The notes under the pieces are model-generated. The model had not been told where the DNA came from. It did no database searches and saw nothing but the letters and a program-made list of their open reading frames with translations. A DNA stretch of 64,000 bases from Ectothiorhodospiraceae bacterium (GTDB taxonomy: Bacteria; Pseudomonadota; Gammaproteobacteria; Nitrococcales; Halorhodospiraceae), in contig PUNM01000131.1 in the NCBI GenBank assembly GCA_003552625.1, positions 1-64,000 of the forward strand, written 5' to 3'. This document shows, one piece after another, positions 23,262 through 34,342 of this stretch (within the stretch, counting starts at the first letter, position 1; every line of letters starts with the position of its first letter). The position numbers and the translations under genes are program-made.

Positions 23262-23295
23262 CGCAGGCTCACCCGATCAGCCGGGTGAGCCTGCG
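23262..23295. terminator. Hairpin terminating fabI and lldP
   Basis: Perfect 14-bp stem (arms CGCAGGCTCACCCG and CGGGTGAGCCTGCG) around a 6-base loop. Its right half overlaps the last codons and stop of the convergent lldP gene. No T-run follows in either direction, so efficiency is uncertain. Confidence 0.6.
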
Positions 23296-25130
23296 TCACC
23301 CTGCCGGCCCTTGCGCCCGCGGTTGAAGTACATAAAGGTCAGGAATAGCACTGCCCAACCGATAGCCGCCAGATACCACGGATTCGCCCCACCGGCGATG
23401 ATCGCCATCCCCAGAAGGCCCGCGCCGACGACGTAGTAAGTCATCGGGATCAAAGTCTTGCGGATGATATCGCCCTCACGGCCGAGAAGCCCCACAGTGG
23501 CCGAGGCAGCAACCACGTTGTGCACGGTGATCATGTTGCCGCCGGCGCCACCCACGGCCTGCAGCGCGACCACCATCGACGCCCCGAAGGAGCCCAGACC
23601 AATCTGCTCGGCGGTGGAGATCTGGAAGAAGGCGAACATCATGTTGCTCACCGTGTTACTCCCCGCCAGGAAGGCACCGAGGGCGCCGATCAGCGGCGCG
23701 AAGAGCGGCCACAAGCCGCCGGCCACGGTCGCCATGCCCTGGGCCAGCACTTCCGGCATGCTCGCCACGGAGGCGACACCGCCGATGGAGACCCCCTCGG
23801 CCAGCCGCTCTTGGATCGCGACCACGTCATCGAGCCCACCAGGTGCCGAATTGATGAAGACCTGAACCATCGGCACCGCGAAGATCAGGGCCACACTCGC
23901 TGCAAGGATGGTCTTTCCGGACGTTTTCCACGCCTGGAGGTAGTTACCACTCTCCCACATGCGGTGAAGGAAGTAGGTGATCACCGAGGTGACCAGCAGC
24001 ACGAAACCGGGCAGATAGAGCGGCTGGGACGAAGTGTCGATCCCCGAGCCAAAGATGTCCGTCCAGCTCAGCGTCACCGACTGCAGGGCATCGACCACCG
24101 GATCAACGGTCCGGGTAAGCACCAGCAGCAGCGCTACGACGACATAAGGCGCCCAAGCCTGCATCTGGGCAAGCTTCACACCGCCGCTGCGCTCTGGCTC
24201 CACGGCATCCTGCAGGCGGCTGATCCACTCCGGCTCCCAGTCACGCCGTGGTTCGAACTCAAACGTGTCCTTGGGCAGCAGGAAGCCACGACGCGCCGCC
24301 GGGACAACGATGGCAAGCCCGATCAGGCCGCCCACCAACGCCGGGAACTCGGGCCCCAACAGAGCGGCGACGGCAAAGTACGGAACCACGAAGGCAACGC
24401 CGGCGAACAGCGCAAAGGGCCAGGCCCGCATTCCCTCGCGGAACGACCGATTCGCGCCAAAGAAGCGGGTGAGCATGCCGACCATGATCAGCGGCACAAG
24501 CAGGCCGAGGATAGCGTGGACCATGGCCGTGTACATGCCGATGTCGTGCAGGTACTCCGCATAGGTGACACCGGCTGCCTCCACCATTCGGTTGGTGACG
24601 CTCTGATCGGCTATGCCGGCATCGACACCGACGATGATCGGCGTCCCCACGGCCCCGAAAGAGACCGGAGTCGATTGAATGATCAGCGCCGTCACCACCG
24701 CCGCCATGGCCGGGAAACCGAGGGCTACCAGCAGCGGGGCAGCGATCGCGGCGGGCGTCCCGAAGCCGGAGGCGCCCTCAATGAGACAGCCGAAGAGCCA
24801 GGCAATAATGATCGCCTGAACCCGGCGATCCGGAGAGATCCCACTGAATCCCTCGCGGATCGTCGCGATCGCCCCGCTCTCGCGCAGCGTATAGAGCAGC
24901 AGGATCGCTCCGAAGACGATGAAGAGGATATTCAGCGCGGTCACAATGCCATGTACCGAGGCACCGGCAACCACGTTGAAATCGGTTCCCCAGAAGCCGA
25001 GGGCCACCACGACAGCCACCGCGTAGGCCAGCGGCATGGCCCACTTGGCGGGCCAGCGGAGCACCACCAGGAACACAAACACTGTCACCAGCGGCAACAG
25101 CGCGAGCAGGAACAGCAAGGCCAGGTTCAT
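23277..25130 (-). CDS. lldP: L-lactate permease family transporter
   Basis: LctP-family proton/lactate symporter, 617 residues, with about 12-14 membrane helices. Family features include [36 protein letters not shown] and [25 protein letters not shown]. It lies 84 bases downstream of lutC on the same strand, so it probably forms one operon with lutABC for uptake and oxidation of lactate. Glycolate uptake is an alternative substrate in this family. Confidence 0.92.
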
Positions 25131-25214
25131 CGCGTCTCCTCCCGATTTTTGTTGTATCGCGTTCGCCTGCGGACCTTCTGGTCGTTATCGTCTCTCTCTT
25201 GTTATATCTACCGC

Positions 25215-25766
25215 TTACGCGTCTGCCTTCTCCGTATCGAGTCCGTTACCGCCAATGAGTAGCACATGCACAGCGCGAGGTCCGTGCGCCCCCAGCTGCA
25301 GGGTCTGCTCAACATCCGCCGTTCGCGAAGGGCCAGTGATCCAGTTCACCGCCCGTGGAAGAGGGCCAGCAGCGAGCATGCGCTCCCATGCCGCCTCCGG
25401 GGTCGGGACCAGGCGGGCCACCTCAAGCAGCACCACGTGGTGTTCCGGCAGGAAATTCAGTGTGACGGGATGATCGGCTCCTGAGCGCAACACCAGGGTC
25501 CCGGTCTCCGCGATGGCTGAATCAGCTTCACTGACCCCGACCCGCTCGGCACCACTACTGCCGCCAAAGCGGTACGCCGTCGCTGCCTCACCCCAGGGTA
25601 GGTCGGCGAGTGCCGGCGCCACGGCCACCGTGGCACCGCCAAGCGAAGCGCAGTACGCCTCGACGGCTTCCGGCACACGTCCCCGGGATTCGACGCACTG
25701 CCACGAACCGGCTACCGCCTCCCACCGTGCAAGAAATGCCGTGACTGTGGCCTGCGCCGGGTTCAC
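25215..25766 (-). CDS. lutC: Lactate utilization protein C
   Basis: DUF162/LUD-domain protein, 183 residues, third component of the LutABC L-lactate oxidation complex. It starts at GTG 25766, forming a GTGA overlap with the lutB stop, with GGGGAG upstream. Family signature: ADSAIAETGTLVLRSGADHPVTLNFLPEHHVVLL and TGPSRTADVEQTLQLGAHGPR. In-frame codons further upstream overlap lutB and were rejected. Confidence 0.93.
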   Translation of the reverse strand: MNPAQATVTAFLARWEAVAGSWQCVESRGRVPEAVEAYCASLGGATVAVAPALADLPWGEAATAYRFGGSSGAERVGVSEADSAIAETGTLVLRSGADHPVTLNFLPEHHVVLLEVARLVPTPEAAWERMLAAGPLPRAVNWITGPSRTADVEQTLQLGAHGPRAVHVLLIGGNGLDTEKADA

Positions 25767-27190
25767 GGCCGCTCCCCACGCTGCCAGCGGGCGATGAAGG
25801 TTCCACCGCGCGTGGGGGTTGGCAGATCCCGCGCCGCGACCCAGCCTCCGGCCCCCGGTAAGCGGCGTACACGTCCCCGGGTCCCTCCAGCCCACCCAAG
25901 TAGGCGAGCACCGAGCGAGGAAAGCGGGCGATAAAGCCACGGACGCCGGGCCACGGCCCCCCAAAGGCGGGTTCCCCAACGGTAGCGCGCGCTGACGACG
26001 CCCCCCTCGTACTGGCGCTCACGCAGACGCCGCAAGAGATCCGGAAGCGGAATCTGAACCGGGCAGACGGAACCACAGCGGCCATTCAGTGTGCACGCAC
26101 GCGGCAGATCGGGCGCCTGGTCGAGCCCGAGCATCAGGGGCGTGAGCACCGAACCCATGGGGCCCGGGTAGACCCACCCGTAGGCGTGGCCCCCGACGGT
26201 GGCGTAGACCGGACAGTGGTTCATGCACGCCCCGCAGCGGATGCAGCGCAGCATGGGGCGGAACTCCGAGTCCCGAATCGCCCGCCGACCGTTATCGACG
26301 AGGATGACGTGATACTCGGTCGGCCCCTCCCCGTCCGCCTCGGCCGCCGGCCCGGTGAAGAAGGATGTGTAGGAGGTCAGCTCCTGCCCCGTCGCACTAC
26401 GCGCGAGAACCCGCAGAAGGGTGCAGGTCTCCCGGAAGGTCGGCACCACTTTGTCGATGCCCGCGATGACTACATGAACCTTGGGCAGGCTGGCGGTCAG
26501 GTCGCCATTGCCCTCGTTGGTCACGAGCACGGTCGTACCCGTCTCGGCGACCAGGAAGTTGGCGCCGGTGATGCCCACGTCCGCCTGCAAATAGCGCTCC
26601 CGCAGCACGCTCCGGGCCTCATTGACCAGCTCCGCCACTTCGCCGCGCGGGGGGGTACCGTGATGCTGGGCGAAAAGGGCGCTGATCTGCTCGCGGGTCT
26701 TGTGGACCGCCGGCGCGATAATGTGGCTTGGCGCCTCCCCGGCCAGTTGGATGATGTACTCGCCGAGGTCGGTCTCGGTCACCTCAAGCCCGGCACCCTC
26801 GAGCGCCTGATTAAGGCCGACTTCCTCGCCGACCATCGACTTGCCTTTGGTCACCCGGCGGGCCTCCCGGCTGCGACAGATCTCTAGGACCGCCTGCCGG
26901 GCAGCCTGAGCATCCACAGCGTGGTGGACGTACCCCCCCCGGGCGGTTACATGGCTCTCGAAACGCTGGAGGTGATCCTCCATGCGCTCCAGGGCGCCGT
27001 CCTTAATCTGCGCGGCCGCCGCGGTCAAAGCCTCGAAGTCGGGACGTCCCGCGACGGCGTGTGCCCGCTTGGCGACGAACCCGTCCCGTGCCCGATCCAG
27101 CGCCTGGCGCAGATGCTCATCCTGCAACGCCTCACGGGCCTGAAGCCGGAAACGACGGGGGTGGGCGGCTGTGGCGTTCGGCGCCGTCAA
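25763..27190 (-). CDS. lutB: Lactate utilization iron-sulfur protein B
   Basis: 475-residue protein with an N-terminal LUD domain and a C-terminal ferredoxin-like part, acting with LutA and LutC in NAD-independent lactate oxidation. The first 4Fe-4S site is complete (CIRCGACMNHCP). The second reads CTLNGRCGSVCP: where many relatives have LCGAC there is LNGRC, so one usual ligand is Asn while another Cys lies two residues before. It overlaps lutA and lutC by four bases each. The C-terminus is Arg/Gly rich. Confidence 0.93.
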   Translation of the reverse strand: MTAPNATAAHPRRFRLQAREALQDEHLRQALDRARDGFVAKRAHAVAGRPDFEALTAAAAQIKDGALERMEDHLQRFESHVTARGGYVHHAVDAQAARQAVLEICRSREARRVTKGKSMVGEEVGLNQALEGAGLEVTETDLGEYIIQLAGEAPSHIIAPAVHKTREQISALFAQHHGTPPRGEVAELVNEARSVLRERYLQADVGITGANFLVAETGTTVLVTNEGNGDLTASLPKVHVVIAGIDKVVPTFRETCTLLRVLARSATGQELTSYTSFFTGPAAEADGEGPTEYHVILVDNGRRAIRDSEFRPMLRCIRCGACMNHCPVYATVGGHAYGWVYPGPMGSVLTPLMLGLDQAPDLPRACTLNGRCGSVCPVQIPLPDLLRRLRERQYEGGVVSARYRWGTRLWGAVARRPWLYRPLSSLGARLLGWAGGTRGRVRRLPGAGGWVAARDLPTPTRGGTFIARWQRGERP

Positions 27191-27966
27191 ACCGCGGTCT
27201 CCTCCAGCGCACCGGCGAGTCCGACACCTTGCGCACGTCCGGCCAACACCTCCGCGACGTGAAAGACCCGCAGCGGCTCACCTCGCCGGCGAAGCCGACC
27301 GGCAATATTCATCAGGCAACCGAGATCTCCGCCAAGCACGGTATCCGCACCGGTGGCGAGAATACTCGCCACCTTGTCATCCACCATACGCGCTGAAATC
27401 TCGGGATAGCTGACGCAGAAGGTTCCGCCAAACCCGCAGCAGACATCACGCGCTTCCATGTCGCGCAACTCCAGCCCCTGTACCTGGCCAAGCAGCCGAC
27501 GGGGTTGTTCGCGGATACCGAGTTCCCGAAGACCGGAGCAGCTGTCGTGATAGGTGGCGATTCCTGGATAGGCGGGGTTGAGGCCCTCAGGAGGGGCCAC
27601 TTCATCCAGGAAACGGGTCAATTCCCAGGTCCGTCGGGCCAATGAGCGCGCCCGCTCCCACCACTCCGGATCGTCGCTCAGCAGCAGCGGGTAGTGCCGG
27701 GCTAGGATTGAAAGACACGATCCGGAGGGTCCGACGACGTAATCGAAAGACTCGAAGCTGCGAATCACCTCCCGGGCCACAGCGGCGGCCTGTTGCCGGT
27801 CGCCGGCGCTGCTCGCAGGCTGTCCACAGCAGGTTTGATGCGCAGGCACCTCGACCCGGCACCCAGCAGCCTCGAGAAGCTGCACCGTCGCGAAGCCGAC
27901 CTCCGGCCGGATTACGTCGACAAGGCAGGTTACAAAAAGCCCGACCTGCGGCTTCGTCGATACCAT
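27187..27966 (-). CDS. lutA: Lactate utilization protein A (CCG-domain)
   Basis: First gene of lutABC-lldP; 259 residues. Two CCG cysteine-rich modules are visible: the N-terminal half with QTCCGQPASSAG and the C-terminal half with HDSCSGLRELG and DVCCGFGGTFCV. These bind Fe-S clusters and probably pass electrons to quinone, as in heterodisulfide reductase and GlpC. It overlaps lutB by four bases. No GntR-type regulator (LldR/LutR) is adjacent in the window. Confidence 0.94.
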   Translation of the reverse strand: MVSTKPQVGLFVTCLVDVIRPEVGFATVQLLEAAGCRVEVPAHQTCCGQPASSAGDRQQAAAVAREVIRSFESFDYVVGPSGSCLSILARHYPLLLSDDPEWWERARSLARRTWELTRFLDEVAPPEGLNPAYPGIATYHDSCSGLRELGIREQPRRLLGQVQGLELRDMEARDVCCGFGGTFCVSYPEISARMVDDKVASILATGADTVLGGDLGCLMNIAGRLRRRGEPLRVFHVAEVLAGRAQGVGLAGALEETAV

Positions 27967-28059: not shown

Positions 28060-29634
28060 CTAGAGCCGATCCCTGGCGATCTCGATATCCGCGTCGGCGC
28101 GCAGGGCCCGGATCAGGCTCCGCAGTTCCGTCTCGCCGGCCATCCCTCGCAGCTGTTGAAGCAGTTGCTGGCGCTCTTGGGCTGAGAGGCCATCCGGATC
28201 ACCCGTCTGAACCTGGTCCAGGCGCAACAGGGCCACGGCGCCGTCGTCCAGTTCCGCCACCGCGTAATCGCCCTCATCGCTCAGCCCGAAGGCGCTGCGC
28301 AACACCGCTACAGGATGACCTCGATCATCCCGCTGGATCCCGGAGACCTCCCGAAGCTCCACGTCCAGGTCCTCGGCGACCTCCTCGAGGGAACGCTCGT
28401 CCCGCAACGCAGCGAGAAGCTCGTCCGCGCGCTCCCGGGCTAACTCCCCGGCGCGCTGAATGCGCAGTTCCTCACGGATCGAGTCAGCAACTTCCTCCAG
28501 CGGCTTCGGCTGCGCCTCGCGGTGCTCGGCCAGTCGAACCACGAGGTAGCGGTCGTCGTCCGGTTCGATCAAGTCGCTGTTGTAGCCGTATTCGAAGACA
28601 TCCTCGCTGAAAGCTGCCTCGACCACCTCCGGATGCTCACCGATCCCGGGACCACCGTCGCGGTCGATCCAGTCACTGGTCTGTACTTGCAGCCCGAAAT
28701 GGTCGGCAGCAGGCTGCAGGCTATCCGGCTGCTCGAAGGCTATATTGCCCAGGTCGTTCCCCCACTCGATGAACTGCTCGCCGGCCTCCTCGCGAAGCAG
28801 CGCAACCTTCAGGTCGTCACGGACCTCCTCGAACGCCGGCGCATCGTCGTCATCACCGTACTCCGAGTCATAGCGACTCTGCAGATCGTCTTCGGAAACC
28901 TCGAACTCCTCCGCCAGGTCACGCAGATGGAGCTCGACATAGTCAAGACGGACTGCCTCCGGTGCCATGTAGTCGTCGGTGTTCTCCTCGTAATGGGCTT
29001 CCACGTCAGCTTCGGAGACCTCGACCTCGTCCAGGAAGCGATCAGCCGGGATTTCCAGGTAAGCAAAGGAGCGCGTCTCATCCTGAAGCCGAACGATCCG
29101 GGCAAGCTGAGAGGGAGTCGCAGCGCTGCTGGCGAAAACCGCTTCCTGCAGCTGCTCGACCATCAAATCGCGGCGCACGAGGCGCTCATAGTCCTCCGGC
29201 GTCAGCCGGTTCCGCTGAAGCAGGGTCTGATAACGCTCCCTGGAGAAGCTACCCCCCTCCTGGAAAATCTCCTGGTTGCGAATGGTTCGAGCCACTTGGT
29301 CGTCCCCGACGCGGAGCCCTTTACGGTCCACGTACGCATAGAGGAGCGTCTCATCGATCAGCTGCTCCACTGCTTCGCGGCGCAATGCTGCCGCATCAAA
29401 GCCATCCGGCACCTCGCCGCCGAACATCTCCCGCAACCGGGCACGTTGGCGCTCCACCTGCTGCTCGACCTGAGCCCGCGGGATCTCCTCGCCGTTGACG
29501 CGGGCGACAACGGCGTCATCCGCGCCACCGCCGAAGTACTCATAACCACCCATGAAAACGAACGGAAGGGCGATGAAGCCAACGATGACCCACGCTATCC
29601 AGCCTTTGATGCCGTCGCGAATCGCTTGAAGCAT
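28060..29634 (-). CDS. ppiD: PpiD-like periplasmic folding factor lacking the parvulin domain
   Basis: Membrane-anchored SurA/PpiD-type chaperone facing the periplasm at the Sec translocon; 524 residues. It has the PpiD N-terminus (MLQAIRDGIKGWIAWVIVG, anchor helix about 13-32), the SurA-like N-domain (about 35-190) and C-terminal helical regions. E. coli PpiD is about 100 residues longer. Here the sequence runs from the segment ending LQSRYDSEYGD straight into FEEVRDDLKVALLREEAGEQF, which in E. coli follows the parvulin domain. The isomerase domain is therefore absent. The protein is strongly acidic. It is preceded by a terminator, so it has its own transcription start. Confidence 0.88.
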   Translation of the reverse strand: MLQAIRDGIKGWIAWVIVGFIALPFVFMGGYEYFGGGADDAVVARVNGEEIPRAQVEQQVERQRARLREMFGGEVPDGFDAAALRREAVEQLIDETLLYAYVDRKGLRVGDDQVARTIRNQEIFQEGGSFSRERYQTLLQRNRLTPEDYERLVRRDLMVEQLQEAVFASSAATPSQLARIVRLQDETRSFAYLEIPADRFLDEVEVSEADVEAHYEENTDDYMAPEAVRLDYVELHLRDLAEEFEVSEDDLQSRYDSEYGDDDDAPAFEEVRDDLKVALLREEAGEQFIEWGNDLGNIAFEQPDSLQPAADHFGLQVQTSDWIDRDGGPGIGEHPEVVEAAFSEDVFEYGYNSDLIEPDDDRYLVVRLAEHREAQPKPLEEVADSIREELRIQRAGELARERADELLAALRDERSLEEVAEDLDVELREVSGIQRDDRGHPVAVLRSAFGLSDEGDYAVAELDDGAVALLRLDQVQTGDPDGLSAQERQQLLQQLRGMAGETELRSLIRALRADADIEIARDRL

Positions 29635-29731: not shown

Positions 29732-29808
29732 TGGCGGAGCGGACGGGACTCGAACCCGCGACCTCCGGCGTGACAGGCCGGCATTCTAACCAACTGAACT
29801 ACCGCTCC
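29732..29808 (-). tRNA. tRNA-Asp (GTC)
   Basis: 77 bases with encoded CCA. Acceptor stem GGAGCGG/CCGCTCC, D-arm TAGTTCAGTTGGTTAGA, anticodon loop CTGTCAC with anticodon GTC, and T-loop GGTTCGAGTCC all fold normally. Confidence 0.97.
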
Positions 29809-29856: not shown

Positions 29857-29932
29857 TGGTGGGTGGTGAGGGATTCGAACCCCCGACATTCGCCTTGTAA
29901 GGGCGACGCTCTCCCAACTGAGCTAACCACCC
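29857..29932 (-). tRNA. tRNA-Val (TAC)
   Basis: 76 bases with encoded CCA. Acceptor GGGTGGT/ACCACCC, anticodon loop CTTACAA with anticodon TAC, T-arm GGGGGTTCGAATCCC. It lies 16 bases after hupB, so it is probably processed from the hupB transcript. Confidence 0.97.
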
Positions 29933-29948: not shown

Positions 29949-30221
29949 TCAGTTTATCGCATCCTTCAGGGCTTTGCCAGGCTTGAAGCCGGGAACCTTC
30001 GACGCCGGGATGTTGATCGCCTCTCCGGTGCGCGGGTTCCGACCGGTGCGTGCAGCCCGCTCGCGAACCGTAAACGTGCCGAAACCGACCAGCGTCACCT
30101 GATCGCCCTCCCGCAGCGCATCGGTCACGGAATCGACCATGGCATCCACCGCACGCGCAGCGGCAGCCTTGGAAAGATCCGCGGACTCGGCGACCGCCTC
30201 GATGAGCTCACTCTTGTTCAT
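29949..30221 (-). CDS. hupB: DNA-binding protein HU
   Basis: 90-residue nucleoid protein. It has [12 protein letters not shown] at the start, the [26 protein letters not shown] beta-arm region with the Arg-Asn-Pro DNA-intercalating tip, and the C-terminal [12 protein letters not shown]. It follows lon, as in many gammaproteobacteria, and has its own sigma70-type promoter about 225 bases upstream. HU-beta is favoured by position. Confidence 0.97.
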
Positions 30222-30486: not shown

Positions 30487-32940
30487 TTAATGCGGCCGGG
30501 CCGCATCGGTCTCCGAGTCCCCGACCGCAACACGCGGAGTGCTCTCATCGCTGCTCGGCTCCCCTTCAGGGAGCGGCTCCGGCTTGCGCGCCAGGGCTAC
30601 ATCGAGGACCTGATCGATCCACCGTACAGGCCGGATATCGAGCTTCGCCTTGACGTCCTTGGGTACATCGGCCAGGTCCTTCTCGTTCTCCTCGGGGATG
30701 AGCACCGTCTCGATGCCACCACGCAACGCCGCCAGGAGCTTCTCCTTGAGCCCGCCGACAGGCAGAACCTCGCCACGGAGCGTGATCTCCCCGGTCATGC
30801 CGACCCCCGCGCGTACCGGTATCCCGGTCAGCGCAGAGACCAGCGCCACGCACATCCCCGTGCCTGCAGAGGGCCCATCCTTCGGTATCGCCCCCTCCGG
30901 CACGTGAATGTGGTAATCGTGCCGGGCATAAAATTCCGGCTCCAGTCCCAAAGCACGGGCCCGGCTGCGGACCACGGTGGTCGCCGCGTCGATGGACTCC
31001 TTCATGACCTCACCGAGCTGCCCGGTCTGCGTCGCCCGTCCCTTGCCCGGGACGACGGCCACCTCGATGGTCAGCAGCTCACCGCCGACCTCGGTCCAGG
31101 CCAAGCCGGTCGCCTGGCCGACGCGATCCTCCTTCTCGGCCACACCGTACCGATACCGCCGGACGCCCAGGTATTTGTCGATATTCCGACGAGTCACCTG
31201 GACACGGCTGCGACTGCGCCCTTTACTCTCGCTTTCAACCAGGCCCTTGACCACCTTTCGACAGACGGTCGCCAGCTCCCGCTCCAGATTGCGAACACCT
31301 GCCTCTCGGGTGTAATGGCGAATCGCATCGCGAATAGCCGACTCTTTAACCTCCAGCTCGCCCTTGCGCAGCCCATTGGCCTTCATCTGCTTCGGCAGCA
31401 GATAGCGCTGAGCGATGGCCACTTTCTCCTCTTCCGTATAGCCAGGCAGGCGGATGACCTCCATCCGGTCGAGCAGCGGGGCCGGTATGTTCATCGTGTT
31501 CGCCGTACAGACGAACATGACATCGGAAAGGTCGAAGTCCACCTCGAGATAGTGATCGTTGAACGTGCTGTTCTGCTCGGGATCGAGGACTTCCAGCAGC
31601 GCCGACGACGGATCGCCACGGAAATCCATCGCCATCTTGTCCACCTCATCGAGCAAAAAGAGCGGGTTGCGCTTCCCGGCCTTGCTCAGGTTCTGCACGA
31701 TCTTGCCCGGCAACGAGCCGATATAGGTTCGCCGGTGCCCGCGAATCTCCGCCTCGTCACGCACACCGCCGAGGGACATGCGCGTGAACCGCCGGTTGGT
31801 CGCCCGAGCAATCGACTGGCCGAGCGACGTCTTGCCCACACCGGGCGGCCCCACCAGGCAGAGTATGGGCCCCTTGAGCTTGCGCACCCGCCGCTGGACG
31901 GCCAGGTACTCGAGGATCCGCTCCTTGACCTTCTCGAGTCCATAGTGGTCTTCGTCGAGAACCTTGGCGGCGTACTTGAGGTCATGGCGCACGCGCGTCT
32001 TGCCTTTCCACGGCAAGCTGACGAGCCAGTCCAGGTAGTTGCGGACGACCGTCGCCTCAGCGGACATCGGCGACATCATTCGCAGCTTGTTGAGCTCCTG
32101 CTTGGCCTTGTCCATGGCCTGCTGCGGCATGCCGGATTCATCGATCTTGCGCTCTAGGTCCTCGACCTCGTTCGGCACGTCTTCCAGCTCACCCAGTTCC
32201 TTCTGGATGGCCTTCATCTGCTCGTTGAGGTAGTACTCCCGCTGGGACTTTTCCATCTGTTGCTTGACACGCCCGCGGATCCGCTTCTCGATCTGCAGGA
32301 TGTCAATCTCGCCCTCGATCAACCCCATCAGGTGCTCGAGGCGCTCGCGCGGCCCCTCCATTTCGAGGATGTTCTGTTTCTCCTCGACCTTGAGCGCCAT
32401 GTGGGCGGCGATGGTGTCGGCCAGCCGCCCCGGCTCCTCGATACCGGCGAGCGACGAGAGAATCTCCGGCGGGATCTTCTTGTTTAGCTTGACGTACTGC
32501 TCGAAGACGTTGGTGGCCGAGCGGGCCACGACGTCGATCTCCCGGTCGCCGGGATCGGGCTGCGGCTCAGGCACCGTCACCAGGCGCGCCGAGAGGTACT
32601 CACCGCCATCGACCAGTTCGACCAGCTTGGCGCGCTCGCTGCCTTCGACAAGCACCTTCACGGTACCGTCGGGAAGCTTGAGCATCTGCAGGATGGAAGC
32701 GACGGTGCCGTACTCGTAGAGGTCGTCCGCGGCCGGGTCATCAACCTCGGCACTACGCTGCGCGATGAGGAAGATCCGCTTGTCGTGCTCCATCGCCGAC
32801 TCGAGGGCGTGGATGGAGCGCTCCCGGCCTACAAAAAGCGGGATCACCATATGCGGATAGACGACCACATCCCGCAGCGGCAGGACCGGCGCCTGCATCA
32901 CGGTCTGGCTGGATTCGGGATTCTGAGCGGTTGGCTCCAT
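30487..32940 (-). CDS. lon: ATP-dependent protease Lon
   Basis: Cytosolic AAA+ serine protease of 817 residues that degrades misfolded and regulatory proteins. It has an N-terminal substrate-binding domain, the Walker A motif GPPGVGKTS (about residue 365) and the C-terminal protease domain with catalytic Ser in [11 protein letters not shown] and the Lys downstream. The C-terminus is extended and acidic ([16 protein letters not shown]). It follows clpX by 121 bases that contain a heat-shock-type promoter. Confidence 0.98.

Positions 32941-33061: not shown

Positions 33062-34342
<1,281 letters not shown>

Follow-up and report, generated by a model that had tools for sequence, protein, structure and literature searches.

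We identified in the 64,000-nt window (the whole stretch of DNA analysed here) a PpiD ortholog that has very probably been cut down to its chaperone frame, leaving a holdase at the Sec exit from which the innermost, dispensable enzyme module has been excised. The module is the parvulin, an enzyme-type domain that flips proline bonds. The ppiD reading frame (28060–29634, minus strand; ORF listing) is intact, begins with ATG and encodes 524 aa. It is the single ppiD copy of the source genome, in which a second one was not found, and the five other short-form members of the genus share 62–71% identity with the window PpiD across its full length.

Several features tie this protein to PpiD. Local gene order on the minus strand is clpX-lon-hupB-tRNA-tRNA-ppiD, comprising clpX (33062–34342) and hupB (29949–30221), both named from sequence and position, lon (30487–32940), confirmed by search, and tRNA-Asp (29732–29808) and tRNA-Val (29857–29932), placed between ppiD and hupB by ARAGORN. 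The order clpX-lon-hupB-ppiD is the same in E. coli. A PpiD-type C-terminal region is present (C-region HMM, E about 1e-88), with residues 261–524 sharing 48–52% identity with full-length relatives, and in the phylogenetic tree the window PpiD clusters with the full-length PpiDs of its own family. The NCBIfam PpiD equivalog model NF008054 matched with 265 bits in two stretches, under its curated cut-off of 493 bits, a shortfall that we attribute to the missing parvulin together with divergence. Judged from its sequence, the window protein is a PpiD ortholog by descent and not a parvulin isomerase. Immediately downstream, and likewise on the minus strand, ppiD is followed by a lactate-use cluster (23277–27966; Pfam) encoding an L-lactate permease, a LutA-like protein with a CCG domain and two LUD-domain proteins, one of them LutC-like and the other LutB/LldF-like with Fe-S motifs.

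Alignment to E. coli PpiD, with domain limits taken from its published model (PMC9643414), resolved the layout of the protein (all coordinates on the minus strand). A short cytoplasmic end and the membrane anchor occupy residues 1–38 (29521–29634); the anchor, WIAWVIVGFIALPFVFMGG (residues 12–30), has a Kyte-Doolittle 19-residue mean of 2.06 and is the sole such segment, so that the protein is predicted to carry a single N-terminal membrane anchor, at the position it has in E. coli PpiD. The SurA-like N-terminal chaperone module (SurA_N_3, PF13624, E 4.3e-50; residues 1–163, 29146–29634) forms the N-terminal part of the NC domain, which is completed by a C-terminal helix (residues 483–523, 28066–28188; E. 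coli 580–622), the helix that contacts YfgM in E. coli PpiD (PMC9643414). Between them lie the two halves of the second domain, residues 184–220 (28975–29085; E. coli Q187–F223) and 377–478 (28201–28506; E. coli 477–578), and inside these the two halves of the third domain, residues 225–260 (28855–28962; E. coli Q228–F261; strand 227–236 and helix 248–259 in the AF2 model) and 264–370 (28525–28845; overlapping the Pfam Rotamase_2 match). PpiD has a nested build, in which the SurA-like NC module encloses the second domain and the second domain encloses a degenerate third one.

At the centre of this nest, alignment and AF2 model place an excision scar, GDDDDAPA (residues 260–267, 28834–28857), where E. 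coli has its parvulin. In an alignment with more than 100 PpiDs, the missing part corresponds to E. coli PpiD residues 262–359, or 98 residues. The third domain of the E. coli model consists of Q228–F261 and K360–K470 with the parvulin in between (PMC9643414), and because the gap equals the interval between these halves, the excision is exact at both ends. Measured against the nearest full-length relatives, the absent piece is about 108–110 aa (524 versus 632–634 aa). The first-pass annotation, made from the DNA alone, had proposed a loss of about 100 residues matching the rotamase domain between LQSRYDSEYGD and FEEVRDDLKV; the size and identity of the piece agree with our alignment, and its end points are off by a few residues at most.

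Domain searches returned the same picture. A Pfam scan of the window PpiD gave no Rotamase (PF00639) or Rotamase_3 (PF13616) match. Searched against whole genomes, PF00639 found no parvulin at ppiD in the source genome or the other short-form species and recovered the two parvulin domains of SurA, which served as an internal positive control; at the ppiD locus it matched the congener G003, the sister-genus species G009 and G011, and the outgroups G034 and G038, with E values of 1e-26 to 1e-31. Positions 263–372 of a profile of full-length PpiDs match 2kgj, the solved structure of the parvulin from E. coli PpiD, and the window PpiD as query retrieved no parvulin chain at a significant score. 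An assembly artefact or frameshift was ruled out by the occurrence of the same cut in six species, including the gap-free genome G006. A second gap-free genome, G008, has a different and deeper cut at the parvulin site.

The retained third domain is itself parvulin-like. Rotamase_2 matches residues 268–384 of the window PpiD (E 5e-11), and the same model also matches, weakly, the corresponding third-domain stretch in two PpiDs that have a true parvulin as well, those of E. coli and the full-length congener. AF2 models were built from two sequences; the whole-protein model was poor (mean pLDDT 58.7), and that of residues 196–405 reached a mean pLDDT of 82.8. In the latter, the scar forms a loop between helices 248–259 and 268–301, and residues ~226–374 adopt a parvulin-like arrangement (VIA-align Z 8.5–8.8, rmsd 2.8–3.3 over 87–103 residues against PrsA/PpiC-type domains; unrelated folds stay below Z 3.4). 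The closest structural match was PpiD-YfgM 8zht (Z 9.8), a value that speaks to the fold only. By inspection, neither an HIL nor a G-x-H-I/L motif occurs in the candidate strands VRLDYVELHL and RYLVVRLAEH. As modelled, residues ~226–374 are PpiD's ordinary third domain, a degenerate, non-catalytic parvulin-like fold. A hidden parvulin at residues 226–384 was accordingly considered and rejected, the segment being the third domain that E. coli and the full-length congener also possess. A parvulin match or fold at residues 190–330, which the first-pass annotation had treated as incompatible with its proposal, is therefore formally present (Rotamase_2, AF2) but belongs to the third domain. Its claim of a lost rotamase domain is correct, but to call the protein free of any parvulin fold would be a mistake.

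The shortened gene is maintained by selection. An open frame without a stop occurs at ppiD in 12/12 genomes of the family (G000–G011, with G000 the source genome). Rough Nei-Gojobori estimates among the closest species, G004, G006 and G007, gave dN/dS of 0.08–0.12 for the gene and 0.07–0.15 across the scar region; for distant pairs, whose synonymous sites are partly saturated, the whole-gene value rose to about 0.43. What remains of PpiD is thus under purifying selection, and the loss was clean, as had first been proposed from the intact frame and as the shared cut, the open frames and the dN/dS of 0.08–0.12 bear out. Equally, the anchor, the SurA-like domain and the C-terminal region, earlier noted to align with E. 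coli PpiD, are intact and constrained by Pfam, alignment and dN/dS. The deletion might instead mark a stage in the disappearance of ppiD from a lineage that has ceased to need it, a view to which the small size of some related genomes and the forms in G002, G008 and G010, shorter by a further ~40 residues around the site, lend some colour. Against it stand the open frames in all 12 genomes, a dN/dS of about 0.1 and the conservation of neighbourhood, anchor and C-terminal helix; decay is largely refuted already, and we regard it as extremely improbable.

Parvulin-less PpiD is present in 9/12 family genomes and takes two forms. A ~524 aa form occurs in G000, G001, G004, G005, G006 and G007, and a ~481–484 aa form, from which ~40 further residues around the parvulin site are gone, in G002, G008 and G010, the last belonging to another genus; genus g1 comprises G000–G008. 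The parvulin is kept in G003, a member of the source genome's own genus, and in G009 and G011. Phylogenetic analysis of Lon placed G003 next to the 524-aa clade (support 96/94; SH-aLRT 88 in the PpiD tree) and united G002 with G008 outside that clade (98/97), a grouping that the PpiD tree shares. The branching outward therefore runs from the 524-aa group through G003 (with the domain), G002 and G008, and G009/G011 (with the domain) to G010 (without it). Since PpiD and Lon trees agree in topology, this distribution points to three separate parvulin losses within the family.

A single ancient loss, followed by regain of the parvulin or transfer of a full-length ppiD in G003, G009 and G011, would produce the same present-day pattern. 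The parvulin is a compact insertion that could in principle be re-inserted, and the position of G003 as sister of the six short forms is only moderately supported in the PpiD tree (SH-aLRT 88). However, with the parvulin columns removed, the trees put full-length PpiDs where Lon puts the species, so no whole-gene transfer is seen; moreover, the insertion residue of the parvulin is identical in E. coli, the order and the class, and the family's two short forms differ in the size of the cut. We consider regain very unlikely and retain three losses.

Beyond the family, we surveyed 377 gammaproteobacterial genomes with a profile of full-length PpiDs and rechecked low scorers by SurA_N_3 match and locus. 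This confirmed 39 short forms in 15 families, with 30/39 outside the window's family; the number is a lower bound, as any genome with a score better than about 1e-110 was counted as full length. Family f44 was excluded from the count, its C-terminal part being too divergent to classify. The PpiD-like proteins of f44 (L122–L126, 477–576 aa) have a recognisable N-terminal module, with both C-terminal part and insert too divergent. A 3210-codon frame at the PpiD of G099 was dismissed as an artefact of an N stretch. Parsimony on a class tree built without the parvulin region required 16 changes, of which well-supported branches alone force at least 10. We read these changes as losses because the site of the domain is shared by E. 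coli and most of the class, and the parvulin appears to have been lost at least ten times in the class. A survey of Ectothiorhodospiraceae PpiDs had been suggested earlier as a way to date the loss; the result is not one event in that group but three in the family and at least ten in the class.

Short-form PpiDs of the 15 families (~481–548 aa) share the loss site of the window protein, with SurA_N_3 running directly into the PpiD C-terminal region, and differ by two cut classes. In the window type, about 43–62 residues remain between the N and C regions; in the other, 17–35 residues remain and the third-domain helices are trimmed too. One pairing of forms with and without the domain falls inside one genus, g102, where G220 has the parvulin and G125 and G409 lack it. 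In the literature searched, which was confined to openly licensed papers, we found no report of a natural parvulin-less PpiD.

To what extent the discarded domain was an enzyme can be approached through the parvulins that remain. Both active-site histidines are kept in 51/75 retained PpiD parvulin segments, and the parvulin of the full-length congener G003 equals PpiC at 9/9 key positions. Because most PpiD parvulins, including that of this closest full-length congener, keep the canonical site, the window lineage has probably lost an active-type domain. A canonical site is no proof that the lost domain was active, since P1 of E. coli SurA is inactive (PMC9797188) with both active-site histidines present. 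The E. coli PpiD parvulin has neither histidine; E. coli, the sole species whose PpiD has been studied in depth, proves in this comparison to have an unusual parvulin. The remark in the first-pass annotation that the PpiD isomerase domain is inactive in any case is hence specific to E. coli. Degenerate parvulins are clade-wide in families f77, f27, f126 and their neighbours, where decay probably preceded deletion, an order of events that apparently does not apply to the window's family.

The parvulin might have been lost for a reason other than catalysis, for example as a docking arm that became useless along with its partner or pathway. DsbA is a candidate partner, since in an AF2Complex prediction it is gripped by the parvulin of E. 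coli PpiD (PMC9797188). With DsbB as the sole marker of the Dsb pathway, no relation to parvulin loss was seen: DsbB is present in 12/12 family genomes, losers and keepers, and in families f77, f91 and f108 both losers and keepers lack it. Loss of a docking arm together with its partner is improbable on this distribution, and we continue to favour the excision of a dispensable enzyme module.

Nor does the isomerase function seem to have shifted to another protein of the same cells, a transfer of labour that we hold to be quite improbable. The canonical active site in P2 of the losers' SurA is compatible with such a shift, but SurA is in an identical state in keepers and losers, with canonical P1 and P2 and with both parvulins kept in the genomes checked. 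By genome search with PF00639, parvulin losers gained no extra parvulin, and they have no extra FKBP except one in G002, leaving no new periplasmic isomerase apart from that FKBP. Cyclophilin (PF00160) was found in 0/9 genomes of genus g1, two of them gap-free, and occurs once each in sister genera and outgroups. The source genome's only other parvulin is a NifM-type domain fused behind NifZ, expected to be cytoplasmic. Two FKBP-type matches in the source genome and G006 putatively represent, from position and size, trigger factor and a small SlyD/FkpB-like protein, and SurA appears to be the only recognisable periplasmic isomerase in both genomes. The additional FKBP-type domain of G002 (G002:C17:58605-58871) is a strong match (E 6.6e-37) with no counterpart in the rest of the genus; G002 is also one of the species without the PpiD parvulin.

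We therefore return to the excision of the innermost module. The true parvulin is an insertion in the third domain between two antiparallel helices, and its in-frame removal would leave a short acidic loop that closes the helical hairpin, so that the rest of PpiD could keep folding. The product would stay anchored, together with YfgM, at the Sec exit; the YfgM gene occurs in the source genome (TPR_21, E 8.8e-46; 222 aa open frame, G000:C7) and in 11/12 family genomes, the exception being an 81% complete genome. At the Sec exit the product may act as an ATP-independent holdase for emerging polypeptides. The holdase reading draws on the purifying selection, on the presence of YfgM and on the function of PpiD-deltaParv in E. 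coli, which kept chaperone activity in vivo and in vitro and was the better holdase in vitro (PMC2956729). Prolyl isomerase activity would be missing from the product, its domain being absent and the third domain presumably non-catalytic.

Known systems resemble the window protein in part. E. coli PpiD (b0441, 623 aa) shares its neighbourhood, anchor, SurA-like module, nested second and third domains and C-terminal helix, but keeps a parvulin (262–359), though one without both active-site histidines, where the window protein has none. The engineered PpiD-deltaParv (Matern 2010, PMC2956729) likewise has the parvulin removed and anchor and chaperone parts kept; it is, however, laboratory-made and less stable in the cell, whereas the window protein is natural, long-maintained and has a short loop instead. 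The laboratory deletion SurA N-Ct shares a chaperone core without isomerase domains and differs in being soluble and in its other C-terminal build.

In the assays applied to E. coli PpiD, the parvulin proved inactive and could be dispensed with, yet prediction has assigned it a docking role. Repeated loss across Gammaproteobacteria therefore offers a ready natural test of the parvulin's purpose, with natural short forms and their full-length sisters in the same genus or family as matched pairs. A broader reading, which we put forward tentatively as plausible rather than probable, is that the PpiD parvulin is a removable module, canonical in most Gammaproteobacteria and discarded by many lineages, so that PpiD never needed it for its central task at the Sec exit; in genus g1 its loss would belong to a wider shedding of isomerases, as if the periplasm there could almost do without catalysed proline isomerisation.

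The NifZ-NifM fusion was observed at L185 (G000:C85:1000-3000) and L187 (G006:C1:313800-315800) as a single frame of about 320 aa. It carries a NifZ domain (E 4.5e-33), and the NCBIfam NifM model matches it from position 89, the N-terminal half of NifM being absent; G003 has an ordinary NifM. A parvulin has moved onto NifZ in the very genus in which another was lost from PpiD.
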